Shown piece by piece: positions 27,301 to 49,300 of a DNA stretch of 64,000 nucleotides. The notes under the pieces are model-generated. The model had not been told where the DNA came from. It did not search any database and saw nothing but the letters and a program-made list of their open reading frames with translations. The DNA comes from Phoenix dactylifera (taxonomy: Eukaryota; Streptophyta; Magnoliopsida; Arecales; Arecaceae). How positions within the stretch are numbered: the first letter of the stretch is position 1; each line of letters opens with the position of its first letter. The stretch spans positions 9,446,745 through 9,510,744 of the forward strand of contig NC_052404.1 in the NCBI RefSeq assembly GCF_009389715.1, written 5' to 3'. Both the position numbers and the translations under genes were made by a program.

Positions 27301-28856
27301 GCATGTTAAGCAGTTCATTCTCTTCAGTGTAAGTAAAAAAAAATCCTCATAATGACTGGTTTTAGAGCAGGAGCCTTTGCTTCAGATTTCCCTTTGTGCT
27401 TATTGCATTATCTTTTTTTTCTTTGATGTGAATTCCTACCAATGTCGGTTGAAATTCATTTTATAAGTTTTTGCTATCTGTTGCACTTTCTTGAGTTTCC
27501 AAGGATGTAACCAAAATATCTATTCTGGGGAAGATGACTTGCATTATAGGGTTTGTACTTACTTGGTTCCTTTAACAAATTTAATGGCATCTATCTTATA
27601 TATGCCTCTTTTCAACATATAAGTGTATAACCAAATCAAATTTGTGCCTTTAACAAATTTAATTACTTTGGACGATCCATGAGTGCAATCTTGAGTCTGT
27701 AAAAATTTGCCGTTGCTATTTTCACCTACAATCAAGCTTGTTTCCAAAGGTTTAAGTCAACTCTTCTTTCTCAAACAAGTAATATCTAGAACTTTTTGCC
27801 CTGTCCAAGGCTCATATCACTGCATCTTTGCCTCATGCAGGTCATGATGCTTCCATTAGGCATTCGCTATATGTGATAGCCTACCTGTAGTGGTCTTGGA
27901 ATTTCCTTCAAGAATCTTTACTCTTCATTGAACTGATGCTGCTTTCATGTTCTGGTGGGACTGAAGGTGGCATCATTCAAGCCGCTAGGCATTGCAATTG
28001 CTTTGCGATGAGAACCACTGCGGCATGATGACCATGAGTTAGGTCATTGATGAAATGATGATTGTCTCAAGTGAAAAGTGAAAACTCGATTTAGTTGACA
28101 TCAGAGAACTACAGGGCCAATCTTGGCTAACTTGATTTCTGCTCCAACATTTTTTGGCTTAGACTATTGCATACTCAAAATCTGCTGTAACTGTCAAGGA
28201 AAGAGTTTTTCCTCTTGTTACTCTGGGGATATATGATAATATTGCTGCCGACTTCCCCTCTTCTCCTTTCTTCTGACTTATCCTTTTATGAATACTTCAA
28301 AAAAATGAAAGAATTTAAATATAAAAATTCTTTCTTTGTTTATTAGGTCTTTTTTTTGATAAATTCAATATGCATGGTGCATGACATGTCCTCACTACAA
28401 ACTTTTATTTTTATTCTTATTCTCATTTTTTCGTTTGCTATGACTGATGGCATGACTTGCCTCACTGAAAAATGAATAATTCCAGGAAAGATGCAGAAAT
28501 CCCTGCCTGATCTTCTGCAGGAGTATGATTTGCCAATAGGCCTCTTCCCTCGGGATGCCACCAACTATGAGTTCAATGAAGAGACACGGAAGCTCACTGT
28601 GTTTATACCTTCTGTATGTGAGGTTGGTTACAGGGACTCCTCTGTCTTGCGTTTTTTCACCAGTGTGACTGGGTATCTAGAGAACGGAAAACTAGCAGAT
28701 ATCGAGGGAATGAAGACCAAAGTTCTGATTTGGGCAAAAGTGACTTGTGTCACAACTGAGGGATCGAAGGTCCATTTTACCACTGGGGTGAAGAAAACCA
28801 GGAGCAGAGGTGCATACGAAGTCCTCAGAGATGGGATCAGCATAGACAAGTTTTAG
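24303..28856 (+). CDS. DUF538 protein, At5g01610-like
   Basis: Three exons, 24303-24389, 27173-27227 and 28486-28856, total 513 nt, or 170 aa plus stop. This equals the length I recall for Arabidopsis At5g01610, a DUF538 protein of unknown biochemical role with a solved structure. Exon 1 encodes MDEILNKVGGYWLNKRASKE. Exon 2 encodes SLSSSIEGGAKWLVNKLK. Exon 3 carries the DUF538 fold, with LPDLLQEYDLPIGLFPRDA, NYEFNEETRKLTV, the core PSVCEVGYRDSSVLRF, and the TKVLIWAKV strand near the end. There is no signal peptide, unlike many DUF538 members, so a cytosolic or membrane-peripheral location is likely. Junctions are GT-AG and phases join (AAA G|GA AAG). Intron 1 is 2.8 kb and holds a foldback element. 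The cellular function is not known; links to stress responses in other family members are only from the literature. Confidence 0.93.
26005..26266. mobile_element. Foldback MITE-like element in DUF538 gene intron
   Basis: The ends are inverted: the left end reads TTA-GGACATGTTTGGTT and the right end AACCAAATGCACC-TAA. The interior has mirrored GGAATGGGAATG and CCATTCC/CGATTCC blocks. The GTTTGG-type terminus next to TTA/TAA resembles Tourist/Harbinger-derived MITEs. The size is about 262 bp. No coding potential. Confidence 0.6.
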
Positions 28857-32873: not shown

Positions 32874-33532
32874 TTAGTTCTGGGGAGTGGCCTCGCCTCT
32901 AAGTCCCCTGAGCTGATTCACCCACTGGTCTTCTGGTACTCGATTCACCCAATCCGGAGGGATCCCTTGGAACGAGACCCCCCTCATCGCGTCTACGATC
33001 CTCGCGGCGTTCTCTGGCGTCAGAGGCGCGCTCCTCCGGCTCTCGTCCTCCCTAAAAGCCCTCGAGATCGACGCCTCCCTCTCCCTCGCCCTTTCCTCCT
33101 CCTCTTCCTCGTCGTTGTGGTCGTCCTCTTCCATTCCTCCACCTTCGCCATCTCCATTCAGATCCAATCCCGAAACACCGTTCACCATATGGATCTGGAA
33201 GAAGCCAGGGTTAGAGTTCTGGCCGTGGATCGGACCGCTGCCGCCGTTGGAACGAACGGGGAAAGAGACTCCGAAACCTCCTCCATCATCATCGGAGTCG
33301 GAGGCGGAGCGGTCATCATAGGCGGAGATCGGGCGATAGTAGCCGTCGGGGCCGGCGACGTCGGAATCCGCGTCGGAGTCCGCGGCCGAGCCATTCTCTG
33401 CAGACATGGAAAAGAGACGAGGAGGGTTTTAGAACGGAGTCAAGAATCAAGGAGCCGACGAGGATAAATTAGGAACAAGGGAAGAATAGAAAAAGAGTTA
33501 CCGTGGAGGAGATCGCCTAGCGAAGCAGCCAT
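32874..33532 (-). CDS. Conserved acidic plant protein of unknown function
   Basis: Two exons on the minus strand: 33532-33502 and 33397-32874, separated by a 104-bp GT-AG intron. They total 555 nt, or 184 aa plus stop. Exon 1 encodes MAASLGDLLH plus one base, which completes a Glu codon in exon 2 (ENGSAADSDADSD). The protein has an Asp/Ser-rich N-terminal third, a glycine-rich middle, an EEDDHNDEEEEEERARERE acidic-to-charged segment (about residues 100-118) and a C-terminal block LTPENAARIVDAMRGV then SFQGIPPDWVNRVPEDQW, which looks like the conserved domain. No signal peptide or membrane segment; the composition suggests a disordered nuclear or cytosolic protein. I do not recognise a named family. 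An ATG at 33407 also opens the frame, but it lies inside the intron just before the acceptor. Confidence 0.75.
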
Positions 33533-35830: not shown

Positions 35831-38800
35831 TCAGGAAAGCCTCTTTCGGTCATTGAACCCTTGAAAAAAGGACTTTGATGCTTCATATGTAGACCAGCAA
35901 ATAGCAGCCGCCGGAGCGTGGAAAAGCATCCTCGGCTTCCATCCCCTCAGGAGCCCAACATACCCATCGCGCCTTACTATGGTTCGTACAACCTCTCGTA
36001 TAGAGCTGCTAGAGAATCTGTCACAACCACAAACACCCTGTGGAACAACAAGAGACGATTACAGTCGAATCTTCAGCCAAAAAATTAGAGGGAAAAAAAG
36101 GTAATAGATTTGCAACAGATATAATGGTCTGATTCTAGAAAACCAATTAAAGGAAATCGTGAGTCATGTAAAACAATTAGCAAGTAGATGAGTTAACACA
36201 GTTCCAAAGTGACTTCATAACAAGGCAAAGATTTTTTTTTTCACACCAAATATACTATTAGTTTGCGTTAAAACAAAGCAGTAGGCCGCATACAAGTAAG
36301 CCTCATGAGGCTCAAGCTGCCTGTTGAAGTCCTACCACCGCATAAACCCGACACCAAAACAAAGAAACTCAGAAACACCACCTTGAAACAGAAAAACCAA
36401 CCCTGCCACCAACTCCTAACTACAACTAAACCATTCTTATTAGTCCACCCCCTACAGTCAGACATACTGCTCTACGACCTACACTCGGACTCATGGATAT
36501 TGATCCCTTCAATGGCAGCACGCTCCCCTCGGGACTCATCCATGGTGCTGAACTTGCCCTTGCGGCCCTCTGCCCCCAGCTGCTCCCTCCATGTTTGCCC
36601 TCCAAAGCTACGACCTTCAGCCAGATGCTCTTGGGACTCAAGGCTCTTGCCACAGACTCCACCAGGGATCACAATCTCTCCTTGCCTCGCACTGGCATCG
36701 GGCCCAGCCCTCTCCTGCTGAGTTGCCATCTATTGGCTCTTACCAACCACTGCCCGCTCTCTCAAAAGGAAGTACAAGAAAGAAAGATGTTTGTGTTTCA
36801 CTCCCACGTGCCAACAACTTGACTTACTTCCCTACAAGGCAAAGGCAATCTAACACCACAGACAATATCTAGAAAACTGCTGACATCTTGATAAAGTATG
36901 CTTTTCTTTTGGAGTGGAAGCAGATAGCAAGTCGAATGATCATTTTGATCAAGTTCTATCTCATACTGGATAGAAACAAACAAACAAAAAACCAGATCCG
37001 GACTTTAGTTACTTGCCACATACCAAGAAAATAGTAGTATCACCATTCCGAACTATGAACAGTATCTTAGTGCTCATAGGCTATTTCTTTCGACCAAGGT
37101 TATAACCAGGAAATTTGGGCTTATTCTGGAGCTTATCATGATCATGAGTTTGACTGGACTGTGGATCTTCAACAAATGCTTTGGTTTGGACAGGCAGCCT
37201 GGTCAGAGTTCAGCCTGTCACAGCCCTACATGGTAACCAAGATATGGAACCCACCGAGGAATCATGTGCTCAACTAGGAGAAAGAACTTTTTGACCAACC
37301 ATGTAGATTTAATAGCAACATACTGGCATTATTGACATAATTTCATAATCCAGTCATGGTGGCTAACAACCAACCATCAGGGGAATTGCTCAAACCAAGT
37401 ATCGGCACATACCTTAGTACCGACACTTGGTACAAGTGAGGTATCGACTCTCAGTACCCTACCAATACAGTACATCCTATATCAGGTAGTACAGTCCAAT
37501 ACAAAAAAATCTATGGTTCCCACGAACGATAAGAATTGGGTATATCCAGACAGACCCTAGATCCACATGGCCCACGGGCTTAGTTGACACAATTTGGCAA
37601 GGATTACGATGCCCTTTATTTACCAAAGTAATGCATTTGCAACAAATTCACAATAATTAAAATCTAGTTGCCTGATTTGGCCTGCAGGTCACCACCATCA
37701 CTCCCTCAAATTTAAATGATCATATGTTAAGAATTAAGATACCTAATAATTGCCTAAGTGAAAAATCAAAGACAAACCCTTCAAAAAATTTACTCCACTC
37801 CAAATAATCTGCTAAGTCATATCTGAAGCCTTGATGATTATAGTGTCACCTTATACCAACATGCATTTAATTGTGCTCCAATGTTCCAGTCCTAGGGGCT
37901 TGAGGATAGCTGCATGGGCCACCACTAACTTGCATCTAGGGACGCCTCCATGGGTCTTTCAAGCAACATCTTAACAAAACCAAAGCTTACATCTGTATGT
38001 TCGGGTACAAACCAGATAAATCATAAACTATGAGAAGGCACCATTAGAAGATTGAAGTGACGACAATCTCCATGCCCGTAAGCGTATTGGCCACCATTTG
38101 CCAAGCGGCAGGCACCTAGCAGATATCCTGGATTGGTACTATAAGTTTAACTGAGAATACCAAATGGTTCTCACAAATATAGTCATTGAGTATCTCAAGC
38201 AAGTCGGCATTACATAATGAAATATCTGAACATCTAGGCAATTGCCACGATCACAGTTGTTCTTTTTCTTTCGATCTCTGTTTTTCTTTTTTAAAAATTA
38301 ATGTGAGCTTAGAGTGTATGATCAGTCAGTAATCAAGGATTTGTTATGTCAAAGGATAGAAGTACGCGACTGTCCATTAGTGATGCACCTCCATCCATAG
38401 TTACAACAACCAGTGGAACTTGTAAAAGATCAATATATCTAATATAGGATAATAGCAATTTATCTATCAACTTAGTTTTTAATAAGACAGGTATCTCCCT
38501 ACTTTTCAATCTTGAGCTATAGTACATTAGAAGTTTTAACAACTGAAAGGACATCATCATCAAGCAGCAAATAGCTCATGCAAGGAATAAACATCAGTTA
38601 ATATCTTGTATGGTATGACAAGTTTGTATTTGTAAAAGTCCTAAGCACTACAACTTAATTAGGAACTCAAACCAGTTCAAGGCTAGATCATAAGTAAAAT
38701 CCATTAAGGCAGAGTAATTCAATGTTTAAGATATACCAATGCTATATACTAGATCAATTAAGTTGGATCGTGCTGGTATGACAACATGAAGAACATTTTC

Positions 38801-41340
38801 TTTATTTGCAGCATTTTGATAAAGTTCTAAGGAGCCGAGGAAGTGCAAAAGAAGGAAGAGCAAAGGAATAAGGTGGAAGAAAGTTAAAGATAATTAATCA
38901 AAATGAGATGTTCACTTGATTTATAAGCTATCACCTTCATTTTATATCGTGTCAGCACTTAGTGGAGATAGTAGGCTAGATGATGTGATTTGTGACAAGA
39001 ACATACAGCTTTGCAATACTTATTATGCTGATACATACGAGAATACCATGTTAATGTATGTTGTTGGAGTTCAATTTATGCATCATCTTAGATTCAGCTA
39101 TTCTTACACATGTTGAAAAGGCAATTCTAATGGTACGAAGCTTCGCTATTAAACAAGAATTTTTCTACTCTTCTAGTTTAATCACATGTCACACCATACA
39201 TATGACTGACAGATATCAGGAATGCATGCATCTTTATGTTATGAAATCATAGATCTCTAACATACGTTGTCTTAATTCTAGGAATTTTAGTGCAATATCC
39301 ATTCAAGTTCCACAAATAGGTCAGACATCATCTTTTTAGAAGGCTTTAAAAAATTTATCGTTTGAGGACCACGAGATTTTCTTCTTTTTTTTTTAAGTTT
39401 TCTTTTCTTCATACATACTTTAACCTACAGTCATAATTTTAGTAAGCATGCTCGATCTGACATTAGATACTGGTATATCAACCTTCAATTTTACTTGCCC
39501 ACTTGAAATAGATGAAGAAAGGCATAAGGCTACAATGACATGATGCAGGAACGAGGGACTTTAACGGACCTCACTGTTATGTGTTAATGAAACCATACCC
39601 TTATAGTCATACAAAAATTTAAGTTCGCCATTGTTTATACATTCAAGTAATCTAGAAGTGAAATCAGAATCTTTCTATATGGTAAGTGATTACTACAGTT
39701 CACCTCCAACAAGTTATTAATATACATCTTCATGTTCCTCACCCTCTTTTTAAATTCCTCTATCCATTATACTCATCACATGTAACTTCCGGTTTGGCTT
39801 TTAACATTGTGTCAGATGGAATAAAATCCAAAACTTTGTTTAAAAATTTCACTATCACACACCAACATCTTATGGGTGATTCTCCAAGCAAAATTGCCTT
39901 TAGGGCCATGTACAAGCACACCCATATTGAGTTTACTTGAATCTGGCAATATCTCCTTAAATAATGGATAAACAATCAAAGAATTTATTGAGCAGTTGTT
40001 TGCAATAATGAGAAAAATATTCTTCATGGCTTCTTTCATCAAAGTGGAACCAACAACTTGACAATCCTCTTCTCCTCTCCATTGGTTACAAGTCATAGAG
40101 CTCCACTGCACTGAGAATTTTCCTTTAAAGTTGATGATAATATTATTAAGGAATTGCCATTTGCAAGATTCCAATAAACTTATTATAATAAAGTTCCTTC
40201 TAATTGGACCTCCTCTACTAATGTTGTGACCATGCGGAGATTCCATCTTTCACCAGAACAGAATAATATTTTAATGCCATTTATGTCATTCGTAATTAAT
40301 TAGTTACGAATATTTATCATGTTCTCTATAAAGGTGGATTCGTCTAATATGATGCATGATGCATGGTTAACCCCTTTTGACTTACTTGAAGAGCATCATC
40401 AGCAACAGTCTCACCATGCTCAACAACTTCATTACAGAAACAAACATCTGAAACAGTAACTAATTCAGACCTCCAAAAATGGAAATAAAACTTAATAGAA
40501 TAAATCCCAACTCAGCAGCAAAAATAACGGAAAAAAATAATTTATAGATTTAGTGATAACATAAAATCTGCTGAAAAGCTTTACCTGGCACTGCAACTGG
40601 GTTTTGACCACATCGAGAGGAGTGGTAACTGCCGCCGCCAAGGCTCCAGCAGCGGCCCCAGCCGTGGCATGCACGACAAGCCTCTCATCATTGGCACTGT
40701 CAGGCGAAACCTCCGTCAGCCCCCTCTTTACCGCCTCATAGGTCGCGAAGTGGACCGCCGTATAGGGGGCGTTCATCAGCACCGTGGTCCGGTACGATGC
40801 GTAGAAAGCCCCGAATCCCTCCTCCCTCAGTACCTTCCCGACGCAGTCGGCGACCCCCTTGTATGGACTGCTCTTGAGCTGCAGCCTCTGCTTCACCGTG
40901 TCCATGGGAGTGAACACCGCATCACTGGCTACAGTAGCAAGAACCCCCGACGAGGCATGGGCGACCGAGTTGTTGGGGTTCCCCTGGGAAAGGAACTCTT
41001 TTGAGATCTCGTAGACGGAGAAGTAGACAGCGTGGGCGGGGCCGGCGCCGAGACCCATGGCGCCGAGGCCGCGATAGAGGCCGAGGGGGCCCTCAAGGCG
41101 GAGGACAGAGCGGAGGGCCTGGCGGAGGCCGACAGGAGGTTGGCAGGGCGGGGAGCCGGCCTGCATCCGTGTCTTGAGGGTGTCAACGGGGAACATGGCG
41201 GTGTGCTCGACGACGCCGGCGACGGAGCCGGCGACCATGAACTGCCAGAAGTCGAGGCCGTCATGGGAGACGCTGAGCTCGCCGGCGGGCGCAGGGGGCA
41301 GGAGGTCCGGGGGCCTGAACTTTGGGGACGCGTCGGCCAT
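35831..41340 (-). CDS. Mitoferrin-type mitochondrial carrier
   Basis: Inner mitochondrial membrane carrier of the SLC25 family, of the MRS3/4-mitoferrin group that imports iron for Fe-S cluster and heme synthesis. Two exons on the minus strand: 41340-40585 (252 codons) and 36037-35831 (69 codons including stop), for 320 aa. All three carrier signatures are present: PVDTLK at about residue 51, PMDTVK at about 145 and PLDVVK at about 241. They mark six transmembrane helices in three repeats. Exon 2 begins [12 protein letters not shown], then [16 protein letters not shown], and ends with [20 protein letters not shown], which is typical mitoferrin sequence. Substrate specificity is inferred from the family. 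Exon 1 is very GC-rich while the 4.5-kb intron is AT-rich. The intron hosts an Em retrocopy in the same orientation. The start is the first ATG of the conserved N-terminus, MADASPKF. Upstream bases 41341-41600 are probably 5'UTR and promoter. Confidence 0.94.
36231..36833 (-). pseudogene. Processed retrocopy of an Em (group 1 LEA) mRNA
   Basis: The minus-strand frame 36729-36472 (85 codons plus stop) reads as an Em-type late-embryogenesis-abundant protein. It starts [11 protein letters not shown], has [11 protein letters not shown], then [24 protein letters not shown], and ends [14 protein letters not shown]. Em proteins protect cell contents in drying seeds. Compared with the family, five residues between EG and RKG of the 20-residue repeat (usually YQEMG) are missing, and conserved Arg residues are replaced (RSFGGQTW for RSRGGQTR). 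No intron interrupts it, although Em genes usually have one. A run of ten T on the plus strand at 36232-36241 is the poly(A) tail, and ACAAGGCAAAG is duplicated exactly at 36220-36230 and 36834-36844. It is therefore an L1-type retroposed copy within the mitoferrin intron. The frame is intact but expression is unlikely without a promoter. Confidence 0.88.
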
Positions 41341-43494: not shown

Positions 43495-44020
43495 GTGCAG
43501 GCAGTTTTCATCCGCTACTTGCACCATAATCCTAACCAACCAATGATTATTTGGGTATCTCGTCCAGCCGAGTTAGCGACTAAATTTGTGTTTGTTTTCT
43601 GGGAGCTCCCACTTCCTTGCTTTCTTAAAATAAACTTTGATGACAGTACTACTGAGCGCAGTGAGAGAGGGGGTGTGAGTTTTGTCACCAGAAACCATCA
43701 TTTCAGATTTGTGGCGGCTGGCGGACGATGGATTATGGACACCTCAATTACTAGAGCGGAGCTGCGGGCGGCATGGAAGGGCATCTCCTTTGCGAGGCGC
43801 ATTCTAGGTATGGAGTGCATCCACCTGAAGGATGATTCGGCCTCTGCGATTGAGGAGGGTCGTGTACGACATTCTGAGTCGGACGGACAGTTCTTGCTCC
43901 TTGACATTCGACGAATGGTTGGAGAGTGTAGCTCCTTTAGGGCCACTCATATTTATCGAGAGGCTAATATGGCAGCCGACTAGGTGGCCTCCTATGCGGT
44001 GCATCACTCGGAAAAAAAAA
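43495..44020 (+). mobile_element. LINE 3' end with RNase H domain, one stop, poly(A)
   Basis: The best-preserved RNase H remnant. A continuous frame 43495-43983 contains LPCFLKINFDDS (first catalytic Asp), RGGVSFVTRNHHFRFVAAGG, ITRAELRAAWKGISFARRIL (Glu), IHLKDDSASAIEEG (second Asp) and THIYREANMAAD. The frame then meets a TAG at 43981-43983, followed in frame by VASYAVHH, a continuation of the domain, so the stop is a disabling mutation. An A run at 44011-44021 looks like the 3' tail. The RT portion is absent: a 5'-truncated insertion. Confidence 0.8.
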
Positions 44021-46351: not shown

Positions 46352-49300
46352 ATGGCGGAGTCCGAGCCCTCGAACCGAGCGCTGACGACCACTCGCTTCT
46401 CCGAGCTGAAGCCCCCTATCTCGGAGCCCGTCATCCAAGCCCTAACCGCTGCCGGCTTCCACCTCTGCACGCCGGTGCAAGCCGCGACCATCCCCTTGCT
46501 CTGCTCCCATAAAGATGTCGCCGTCGACGCCGCTACCGGCTCCGGGAAAACCCTAGCCTTTATCGTACCCTTTGTCGAGATCCTCCGCCGAGGCCCCTCG
46601 CCCCCCAAATCCCACCAGGTTCTTTTCTTCTTATCTCTATGTGTCTCGATCTATAGTTGGTTCTTAAATTTTTAATTGTTGGCTTTTGGTTCTTGAGATA
46701 GATTTTTAATTTGGACCTGCGCAAAATTTGATCTTGGAATTCTGCCGTGGATTTTTTAATTTGATAGGATGGGGGTGAAGTAAGGGAACTCGCACGGCTG
46801 ACCTTTCTTGGAATTTTTTTACTGAAAAAAAGCTTTTTTGGATTGCAAATGCTTGAAAACCTAAAGAATAGGAATGGAAAAGGCAACTTCTTACAATTGT
46901 GAATTATCACCAAGAAAGGAATTGTCTATTAAGTTTCTATTGTTGGAAATGTGACCTAGCGACAAGAAAGGGAAAATGGAAGAAAAAGGGATGTTATTGA
47001 GTTGATTTTGTTTGCTGTTATTGGGAAGGATATGCACTTGGGCGGAGTTGGGCATGTTTAATTTATTTTCAGGTGATTGTTGTGAGAGAGTCTGGTGATC
47101 ATGAAGATCCTGGAAATGGTATTGTTATTGATAAAATTCTGCTTGGATATGCTATTTGTCACTTATATTTAAGGATATGGAAGTAGGCAGAACTCTTTTG
47201 GCAATGCTATTCTCATGTGTAGCTCAAGAGGACACCTTAAGATGAATCTTGAGACTTTAAAATACTATCTGAAATTAAATATGTTGGACTTCTACTGGGG
47301 AAGACTGAAATGAGATACTTGTTTGCTTTGGATGAGACCATCACAGTTCGTCTCAAAATATTATCTTTAGCTGGAAGAGATTAGAATAGATATTCTCTCT
47401 CTAGAGCCCATTAGAATTGGTTTGAACTGTTCGAATCGAGGCAATACTTATAAGATTGATGGATTGGCTGTAACTGAAACATATCAGACCCAAGGCTAGC
47501 TGAAATGGGTTCTGAATTCCTACTCTTCAGCCTCTTTAGAATCCTTTGATGTAATAAACTTCAAGCTTGTGCCAAAGAAAAAAGGTAAAATGTAAAATAG
47601 AACGAAGGAATGTTTCAGGGGCCCCTTGGTTGACTATCATGAGTCACAGTTGTTTTGTACAATGGACTCTTAGGCAAAATCAAATTTATCACTTATTATC
47701 TTTGAGAATATCATGTGTACTATCGCTCCTCATTTGTCAGATGTTATTAAAGTCAGGGTCAAATTGTAAATAAGGTCAAATTGAGTCTTATAGAGGATTT
47801 AAAGATAACCATATTTTATATGAGTAAAAATACAGTATTACATATTTTTATAGTATGAGTAGAAAAGCTACTATGTCTACTTTCCACATTTTTTTAGCTT
47901 TATAGCTTAGTTGATTTGGTGTCTGGATTAACTCGCCTACAATATTCATTGCATAGTATTGTTGGTATATTTACTGTGCTGGTCATTGATTGACATGGCT
48001 AGGTATGCAAAATTTCGATCTTTTTGTTGTTGTCTGCTAAAATAGGCATGCTTATGTAAAATGATTTCCTTTGTATATTAAGTTATAGTCATGCAAGCTA
48101 AAAGGTTTATGATAACTGACAACCACCATATGACAATACCATTCATACATTTGCTTTTTGTGAGTGCATGTATGCTGGGTTGTGCTTCTTATTGTGCTAA
48201 TATTTCTGGAAGTTTCCAAATGAACACATGGCTTGCATTTTTTTTTAAAATTTATTTAAACATAAGAAATTTTGATTGCTGGTTTGATGGAAATAAATTG
48301 ATTATTTTTGGCACATAATTGTTGTGGTTACAATTTGACGACATTTCTTATAATTATAATGATATCATTCAAGGGTATCTAAGTGTGCACCTGTGTATAT
48401 CAGGTCATAGGAATGATAATCTCTCCAACGCGTGAATTATCATCACAAATATACCATGTTGCACAGCCTTTCTTCTCAACGATGCCTAATGTTAAATCTA
48501 TGCTTCTTGTTGGAGGGGTGGACATTAAAACGGACATCTGGAAATTAGAAGATGAAGGTGCAAACATTCTAGTGGGCACACCTGGAAAGCTGCATGATGT
48601 GATGGAGCGTCTAGACATCCTAGATTTCCGGTCACTTGAGGTATTCTTTTATGTTTATTGGTTTGATTCATGTAATAATTTAATTGTTAAAGATAAAGTT
48701 GTAAAAAATAGGCATGGATTACTTAGAAAGGACAATGAATGATCAATAGAGTTTAGTTGACTCGCCTATTTTTCCCTATATATGAATGTATTTGCTCTTA
48801 TATAGATCCATGATGCTATAAGAAAAGTGATTGGCTTAAAAGCATCAATCATATATTAAAAGTTTCATTCTTCATGGCTTAGTCTAATCTTCCTATGGCT
48901 ATAGTAGATGTGCCAACCCTAGCATTGTAGTGCAAACTCGTATTTTTAGTTCTGCGTCAATCATGCATGCCCACTAAATTCTCAATATGGTAATATCATG
49001 ATACATGAGGGCTTCCTGCCAAAGAAAAAGGAAAAAAAAAACAAACAGAAAATAGAAAATATGCAAAGGCGCCAACTGAATTGTTCCTTTTGATCATAGA
49101 TGTCCTCCAAACCATGCATCTATAGGATTACGACATCTAATTACCTTTCATGCTTTTTATTAATATGGTTCCAAAGCCTTATGTATATATGTATGTATGT
49201 ATGTATGTATATTGCTGACTCATGACATACCATCTGCAATGCCTTTAAAAATCCTGTCCATTTGTGTTTGTATTACATTCAGGGAAAAGTGATTCTCATA

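Follow-up and report, generated by a model that had tools for sequence, protein, structure and literature searches.

The window analysed here, by which we mean the whole 64-kb stretch C13:9446745-9510744 of the Phoenix dactylifera genome (773,078,369 bases, 2,391 contigs), contains on its minus strand a mitochondrial carrier gene, classed at the level of the carrier family only (Mito_carr). The intron of this gene houses, at 36231-36833 on the minus strand, what is now close to proven to be an intronless copy of an mRNA of Em (LEA_5), a seed-drying protein. Listed along the minus strand, the features are:

40585..41340, minus strand: host gene exon 1 (mitochondrial carrier), from the ATG to the donor; Pfam Mito_carr 1.3e-57 on 40495-41340
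36038..40584, minus strand: host intron with the insert; donor GTAAAG, acceptor CACAG
36834..36844, minus strand: 5' target-site duplication, reading CTTTGCCTTGT in minus-strand orientation; an exact repeat, with a partial single copy at the empty site on C3
36730..36833, minus strand: copied 5' untranslated leader, 104 nt; BLAST does not cover its first ~43 nt, for which the alignment comes from MAFFT or visual reading only
36802..36810, minus strand: CACGTGGGA word in the copied leader, absent from the leaders of both parents
36472..36729, minus strand: Em (LEA_5) frame, open, 85 codons plus stop; from the ORF and Pfam LEA_5
36614..36615, minus strand: position at which the phase-1 intron of the parents (142 bp in C13, 91 bp in C3) is absent
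36242..36471, minus strand: copied 3' untranslated region, 230 nt; from the alignment with the Em genes
36232..36241, minus strand: poly(A) tract, A10 (T10 on the plus strand); read from the sequence
36220..36230, minus strand: target-site duplication on the 3' side of the insert; an exact repeat, set by the C3 empty site
35834..36037, minus strand: host gene exon 2, to the stop codon; Pfam Mito_carr 4.8e-11, exon 89% identical in the C3 homeolog

Four further frames in the window match Pfam profiles. One, upstream of the carrier gene at 43495-43980, resembles RVT_3 (reverse-transcriptase-like, RNase H type; 4.3e-11), and the others match DUF538 (28491-28856; 7.1e-28), MEA1 (32874-33407; 2.2e-6) and a DEAD-box helicase exon (46352-46675; 1.6e-10).

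A first-pass annotation of this DNA had proposed a processed Em retrocopy at 36220-36844, and the element is present at exactly these coordinates, in the sense orientation within the host intron as that annotation had stated; the host gene itself it had labelled mitoferrin. Its description of the parts also proved accurate: the 85-codon frame is open (36472-36729, minus strand) and matches the LEA_5 profile (PF00477) with an E value of 4.6e-26 and 91.8 bits against a gathering cutoff of 40, the poly(A) tract is an A10 at 36232-36241, and the 11-bp repeat ACAAGGCAAAG matches exactly between 36220-36230 and 36834-36844. A single extra base (36231) lies between the A10 tail and the 3' repeat. The repeat has two copies on that strand of the 64-kb window and its reverse complement has none; when boundaries of this kind were placed at random in the window, with 3 bp of slack on each side, a shared 11-mer was obtained in 29 of 200,000 placements. 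A longer, imperfect target duplication of 19 bp (ACTTC..., 84% identity) was considered and rejected, because the 8 additional bases belong to the copied leader at one end and to the flank at the other.

To identify the source of the copy, we searched the whole genome at the DNA level with the retrocopy, which yielded 17 listed matches, including the retrocopy itself. Among the matches listed are two Em genes, each with two exons, on C13 (9872732-9873350) and on C3 (3499396-3499973); beyond these and the retrocopy, nine matches belong to a repeat family, C10 and C14 each hold a short fragment, and C3 has a fragment of leader plus start. The Em count depends on this single search, which scores the best candidates, and the genome thus has at least two Em genes. 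Both carry one GT...AG intron at a common phase-1 position (142 bp in C13, 91 bp in C3), in line with PMC11902115, which describes a single phase-1 intron throughout the LEA_5 genes compared from tigernut, rice and Arabidopsis, and which also reports that the LEA_5 family of oil palm expanded via the whole-genome duplication p. The retrocopy reads straight through the intron position, with the introns of both Em genes missing exactly, so that the proposed processed origin stands against two intron-containing genes, and an intronless parental Em gene with the same flanks, the case that would have spoken against it, is not what these two genes represent. The five-residue gap and the lost Arg residues noted earlier are likewise real against both Em genes: a 15-nt in-frame deletion follows codon 54, and conserved LEA_5 positions are lost, e.g. 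G26C, R42F, R47W, the five residues after codon 54, and F88C. The retrocopy therefore resembles the Em / LEA_5 (group 1 LEA) genes in its profile match above cutoff and in being alignable along both of them, but differs in lacking the intron and the five residues, in its many altered conserved residues and in showing no constraint. In exon 1 of the C13 Em gene (L009:3862-3880), one extra G (GGTGGGGACC) breaks the assembled frame, which may reflect the actual sequence or a fault in the assembly. Only 389 kb separate the retrocopy from this gene on the same chromosome, and the chance of a random landing so near one given gene is about 0.1% (by hand).

A third Em gene was also considered as the parent, on the grounds of a leader word, GAAACACAAACATC, that the retrocopy shares with the leader fragment on C3 and that is missing from the C13 gene; this candidate was set aside, as a similar word occurs in the C3 gene, which makes the word probably ancestral.

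Collinearity, in reverse order, of the C13 and C3 Em genes and the host region directed the search for the host gene's sister to C3. Exon 1 of this sister is located at C3:3997220-3997975 and is 89.7% identical. The intron of this sister gene provides an empty site: window positions 37366-36851 correspond to C3:4000686-4001228 and positions 36226-36161 to C3:4001231-4001296, with 2 bp between the two blocks in C3. When the flanks are joined, with the insert and one repeat removed, and aligned to C3, GCCTTGT appears once, representing the last 7 of the 11 repeat bases, while an 8-bp gap in C3 removes the first 4 repeat bases and the 4 bases preceding them. The repeats accordingly lie outside the insert as delimited by the C3 empty site, which answers the concern, raised with the original proposal, that the 11-bp repeat might be misplaced relative to the homology boundaries. 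The homeologs themselves differ by a dS of 0.36 in the carrier coding sequence and a K2P distance of 0.31 over 2,928 aligned intron sites, values in line with the Ks of ~0.32 given for p in coconut in PMC7822834, and we thus date them to p. The insertion thus postdates p, barring an almost exact removal from C3.

These observations led us to a reading that we regard as very probably correct: an L1-like processed retropseudogene, i.e. a post-p copy of an Em mRNA in a carrier intron, whose frame is open by chance and shows no detectable constraint. The template would have been a spliced, polyadenylated Em (group 1 LEA) mRNA from an Em gene of the C13 lineage; L1-like (target-primed) machinery would have carried out its reverse transcription and its integration into the carrier-gene intron, in sense orientation, leaving the 11-bp target-site duplication and the A10. 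This event would have followed the palm p whole-genome duplication, its age being roughly two thirds that of p; the copy would have brought no promoter along and would have evolved since then without detectable constraint, its short frame staying open by chance. The lost intron, the tail, the duplication, the empty site and the relaxed pattern of substitutions are all directly shown; we infer that the enzyme belonged to the L1 clade, that the insertion took place in the germline or the embryo, and that the retrocopy is not expressed. In its present state it looks like a decaying, unused copy.

L1-mediated retroposition leaves a poly(A) tail and a target-site duplication of roughly 7-20 bp, and the A10 fits this pattern, as does the 11-bp duplication with its length within the range. 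The claim that the combination is diagnostic of L1 can nevertheless be upheld only in part: it agrees with the tail and the duplication, but before the insertion the target was GC/CTTT (sense strand) rather than TT/AAAA. The machinery is here called L1-like. It is this non-canonical target site that gives some room to another route of retroposition, through the machinery of LTR retrotransposons, an RTE-clade LINE or the capture of a cDNA at a broken DNA end, which we consider unlikely. An 11-bp duplication with a poly(A) tail is unlike the LTR pattern, and the empty site shows that nothing was added beyond the copy and its duplication, hence no LTR flank; for the RTE route, the elements of this clade in flowering plants are described in PMC3747384 as ending in (TTG)n or (TTGATG)n.

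The 5' end of the insert bears on whether a promoter accompanied the L1-like copy. Counted from the first base of the TATA box in C13, the insert starts ~31-35 nt downstream, a value that varies with the alignment, as the leader is weakly aligned: 37 of 103 leader sites differ from C13, the BLAST match starts only at copy position 55, and the MAFFT and by-eye alignments are 4 nt apart. The exact mRNA start of the retrocopy would thus fall at a weakly aligned position. Within the stretch scanned, every ACGTG word of the C13 Em gene is found upstream of its TATA box, and the same applies to C3 as far as it was scanned; neither the TATA box nor the parental ACGTG words are included in the retrocopy when it is compared with the C13 and C3 Em genes, within a weakly aligned leader. 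The CACGTGGGA-type word reported near the 5' end does exist, but at 36802-36810 and not at 36805-36813, and the alignment shows no counterpart of it in the leader of either the C13 or the C3 Em gene. As the word sits in the copied leader and in neither parent, no ABA promoter element was carried along from the promoter, contrary to the earlier suggestion. This case illustrates that a promoter-like word inside a retrocopy need not stem from the promoter of its parent.

The age of the copy and the selection acting on it were estimated from three sequences (retrocopy, C13 and C3), with changes polarised by a simple majority of the three; gapped sites, sites differing in all three sequences and the one extra C13 G, the latter to keep codons comparable, were left out. 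The retrocopy branch carries 24 polarised changes in the coding sequence, 21 nonsynonymous and 3 synonymous, against nonsynonymous:synonymous counts of 4:6 (C13) and 8:12 (C3), or 12:18 summed, on the Em gene branches (Fisher's test, p = 0.0006 against both Em genes and 0.009 against C13 alone). In this three-sequence count the retrocopy branch shows no synonymous excess and thus no signal of purifying selection. The 24 changes over ~255 sites correspond to ~0.10 per site, which is close to the 0.108 of the 3' untranslated region (a three-point estimate by hand), as expected without constraint. Relative to half the intron divergence since p (0.155), this puts the age of the retrocopy at roughly 0.65 of that of p, give or take a counting error of about one fifth. 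At the two rates quoted in PMC7822834, 2.61e-9 and 7e-9 per site per year, 0.10 per site translates into ~38 and ~14 million years, respectively. The view that the open frame marks the copy as young or retained is not borne out on either count, given ~0.10 substitutions per site, about two thirds of the time since p, and the 21:3 pattern on its branch.

The alternative that the copy is a functional retrogene, transcribed alone or spliced from the carrier pre-mRNA, with a shortened, Arg-poor LEA_5 protein being kept or positively selected, has several features in its favor: an 85-codon open frame with its ATG and stop near the parental positions, a sole coding indel that is in frame (15 nt), a nonsynonymous/synonymous rate ratio of ~2 on its branch (by hand) and a sense orientation inside a gene. 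We nonetheless judge it very unlikely. The 21:3 ratio does not significantly exceed the neutral expectation, under which at most 3 of 24 changes would be synonymous with a probability of 0.050-0.126 across six settings, and because this synonymous deficit is non-significant, positive selection is not shown. Moreover, coding and 3' untranslated rates are about equal, conserved LEA_5 positions such as those at codons 26, 42, 47 and 88 are lost, and no promoter appears to have been copied. Under neutral models with 24 changes, no stop arises in 45-59% of cases, and no frameshift in 6-38% under assumed, unmeasured indel ratios; the product of these ranges gives a chance of ~3-22% that the frame stays open, subject to the same assumed ratios. 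On these models the open frame would appear lucky and would require no selection.

Some oddities accompany the L1-like retropseudogene, namely its target site, its clean repeat and tail, the branch lengths, its nearness to the C13 gene and the extra G in that gene, and none of them overturns the retrocopy reading. The poorly conserved leader and the 8-bp gap at the C3 empty site also count against it to some extent. For the 22 repeat positions to stay unchanged at ~0.10 per site, the chance is ~0.11 (by hand); an exact repeat, a pure A10 and an open frame at such an age are jointly unlikely, but the case was picked for its cleanness. The branch of the C13 parent seems to be about twice as long as that of the retrocopy (dS 0.156 vs 0.081, 3' untranslated region 0.20 vs 0.11, by hand). 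The case shows that an open frame and an exact target duplication do not imply a young or useful copy. As for the idea that a DNA-level duplicate of the C13 Em gene later lost its intron precisely, its one attraction is that this gene lies on the same chromosome only 389 kb off, and it can be discarded as next to impossible, because the A10, the 11-bp duplication and the homology ending at both boundaries would each need a separate explanation, neither TATA box nor promoter appears to have been copied, and the empty site with one partial repeat contradicts it.

The process behind the L1-like copy is already known, and the palm copy is an unusually clean example of it. PMC3747384 mentions many processed pseudogenes reported in flowering plants and poly(A) ends in almost all plant L1-clade LINEs; according to PMC7935947, processed pseudogenes are a minority in five plants. 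PMC4838847 presents Arabidopsis and cassava retrocopies that bear poly(A) and target-site duplications, termed L1-like there since most depart from TTAAAA or from other features, and the same source states that monocot cases would be no surprise. Like the dicot examples detailed there (Arabidopsis R_AT4G31900.1 and cassava R_cassava4.1_019865m), the palm copy has lost its intron and bears a poly(A) tract; unlike them, it has a duplication of 11 bp and not 13-15 bp, is much older (the dicot copies are young, with >95% identity to the parent) and comes from a monocot, and its target does not match the exact TTAAAA of the cassava retrocopy. With mammalian L1-mediated processed pseudogenes, as characterized in PMC3747384 and PMC4838847, it has in common the tail, the duplication and the near-full-length mRNA, but not the TT/AAAA target. 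Owing to the homeologous empty site, the palm copy is better documented than most. For L1-like retroposition in monocots it offers an example whose hallmarks can all be checked apart from the target motif, and the empty site within the same genome, in a sister gene from a whole-genome duplication, also bounds the age of the retrocopy. Such sisters could serve as built-in empty-site controls for cataloguing old palm retrocopies.

Other Em-derived sequences occur elsewhere in the genome. On C10 (L016:2698-2860) and C14 (L019:2890-3040), Em coding fragments of 81 and 79 bp extend across the exon junction and lack the intron; Em leader-like sequence directly follows the coding piece, so that the order is scrambled (permuted). 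This leader-like part matches by BLAST at 16/16 and 17/19 bases in L016, and by alignment only in L019. The C10 and C14 regions match each other over more than 3 kb, with a K2P distance of 0.207 over 3,037 sites, coding included, and the duplication from which these regions arose is apparently no older than the Em fragment. The C3 fragment mentioned above (L011:2025-2103; C3:11419024-11419102) comprises an Em leader and the first codons, is 85% identical to the retrocopy and sits just past the 3' end of a long PPR-like frame, which we take to be a PPR; no further Em sequence was found around it at this C3 locus. Together, the fragments of L016, L019 and L011 suggest repeated copying of Em mRNA. 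One could go further and propose that heritable retroposition in palms has used Em mRNA as a template time and again, because the plant germline stems from the embryo and Em mRNA is highly abundant there; we offer this as a speculation and rate it as rather unlikely, although, if true, the retrocopy load of a plant would mirror the mRNA pool of the embryo (or the male flower).

The idea of many additional Em retrocopies did not hold, as 9 of the 17 listed matches belong to a repeat family that carries a piece of the Em 3' untranslated region and are not retrocopies. Its members (L012-L015, L017, L018 and L020-L022, on C16, C17, C15, C4, C14 and C3; e.g. L012, oriented 1339-2632) measure ~1.3-1.8 kb, of which ~110-180 bp match the Em 3' untranslated region and downstream DNA, i.e. 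a captured gene piece. The family ends in TAAGGCTGCAAAT...ATTTGCACCCCTA, with both ends found in 5 of the 9 copies, and is presumably hAT-like, judging by its form; three of the five two-ended copies are flanked by 8-bp repeats that are alike at 7 of 8 bases.
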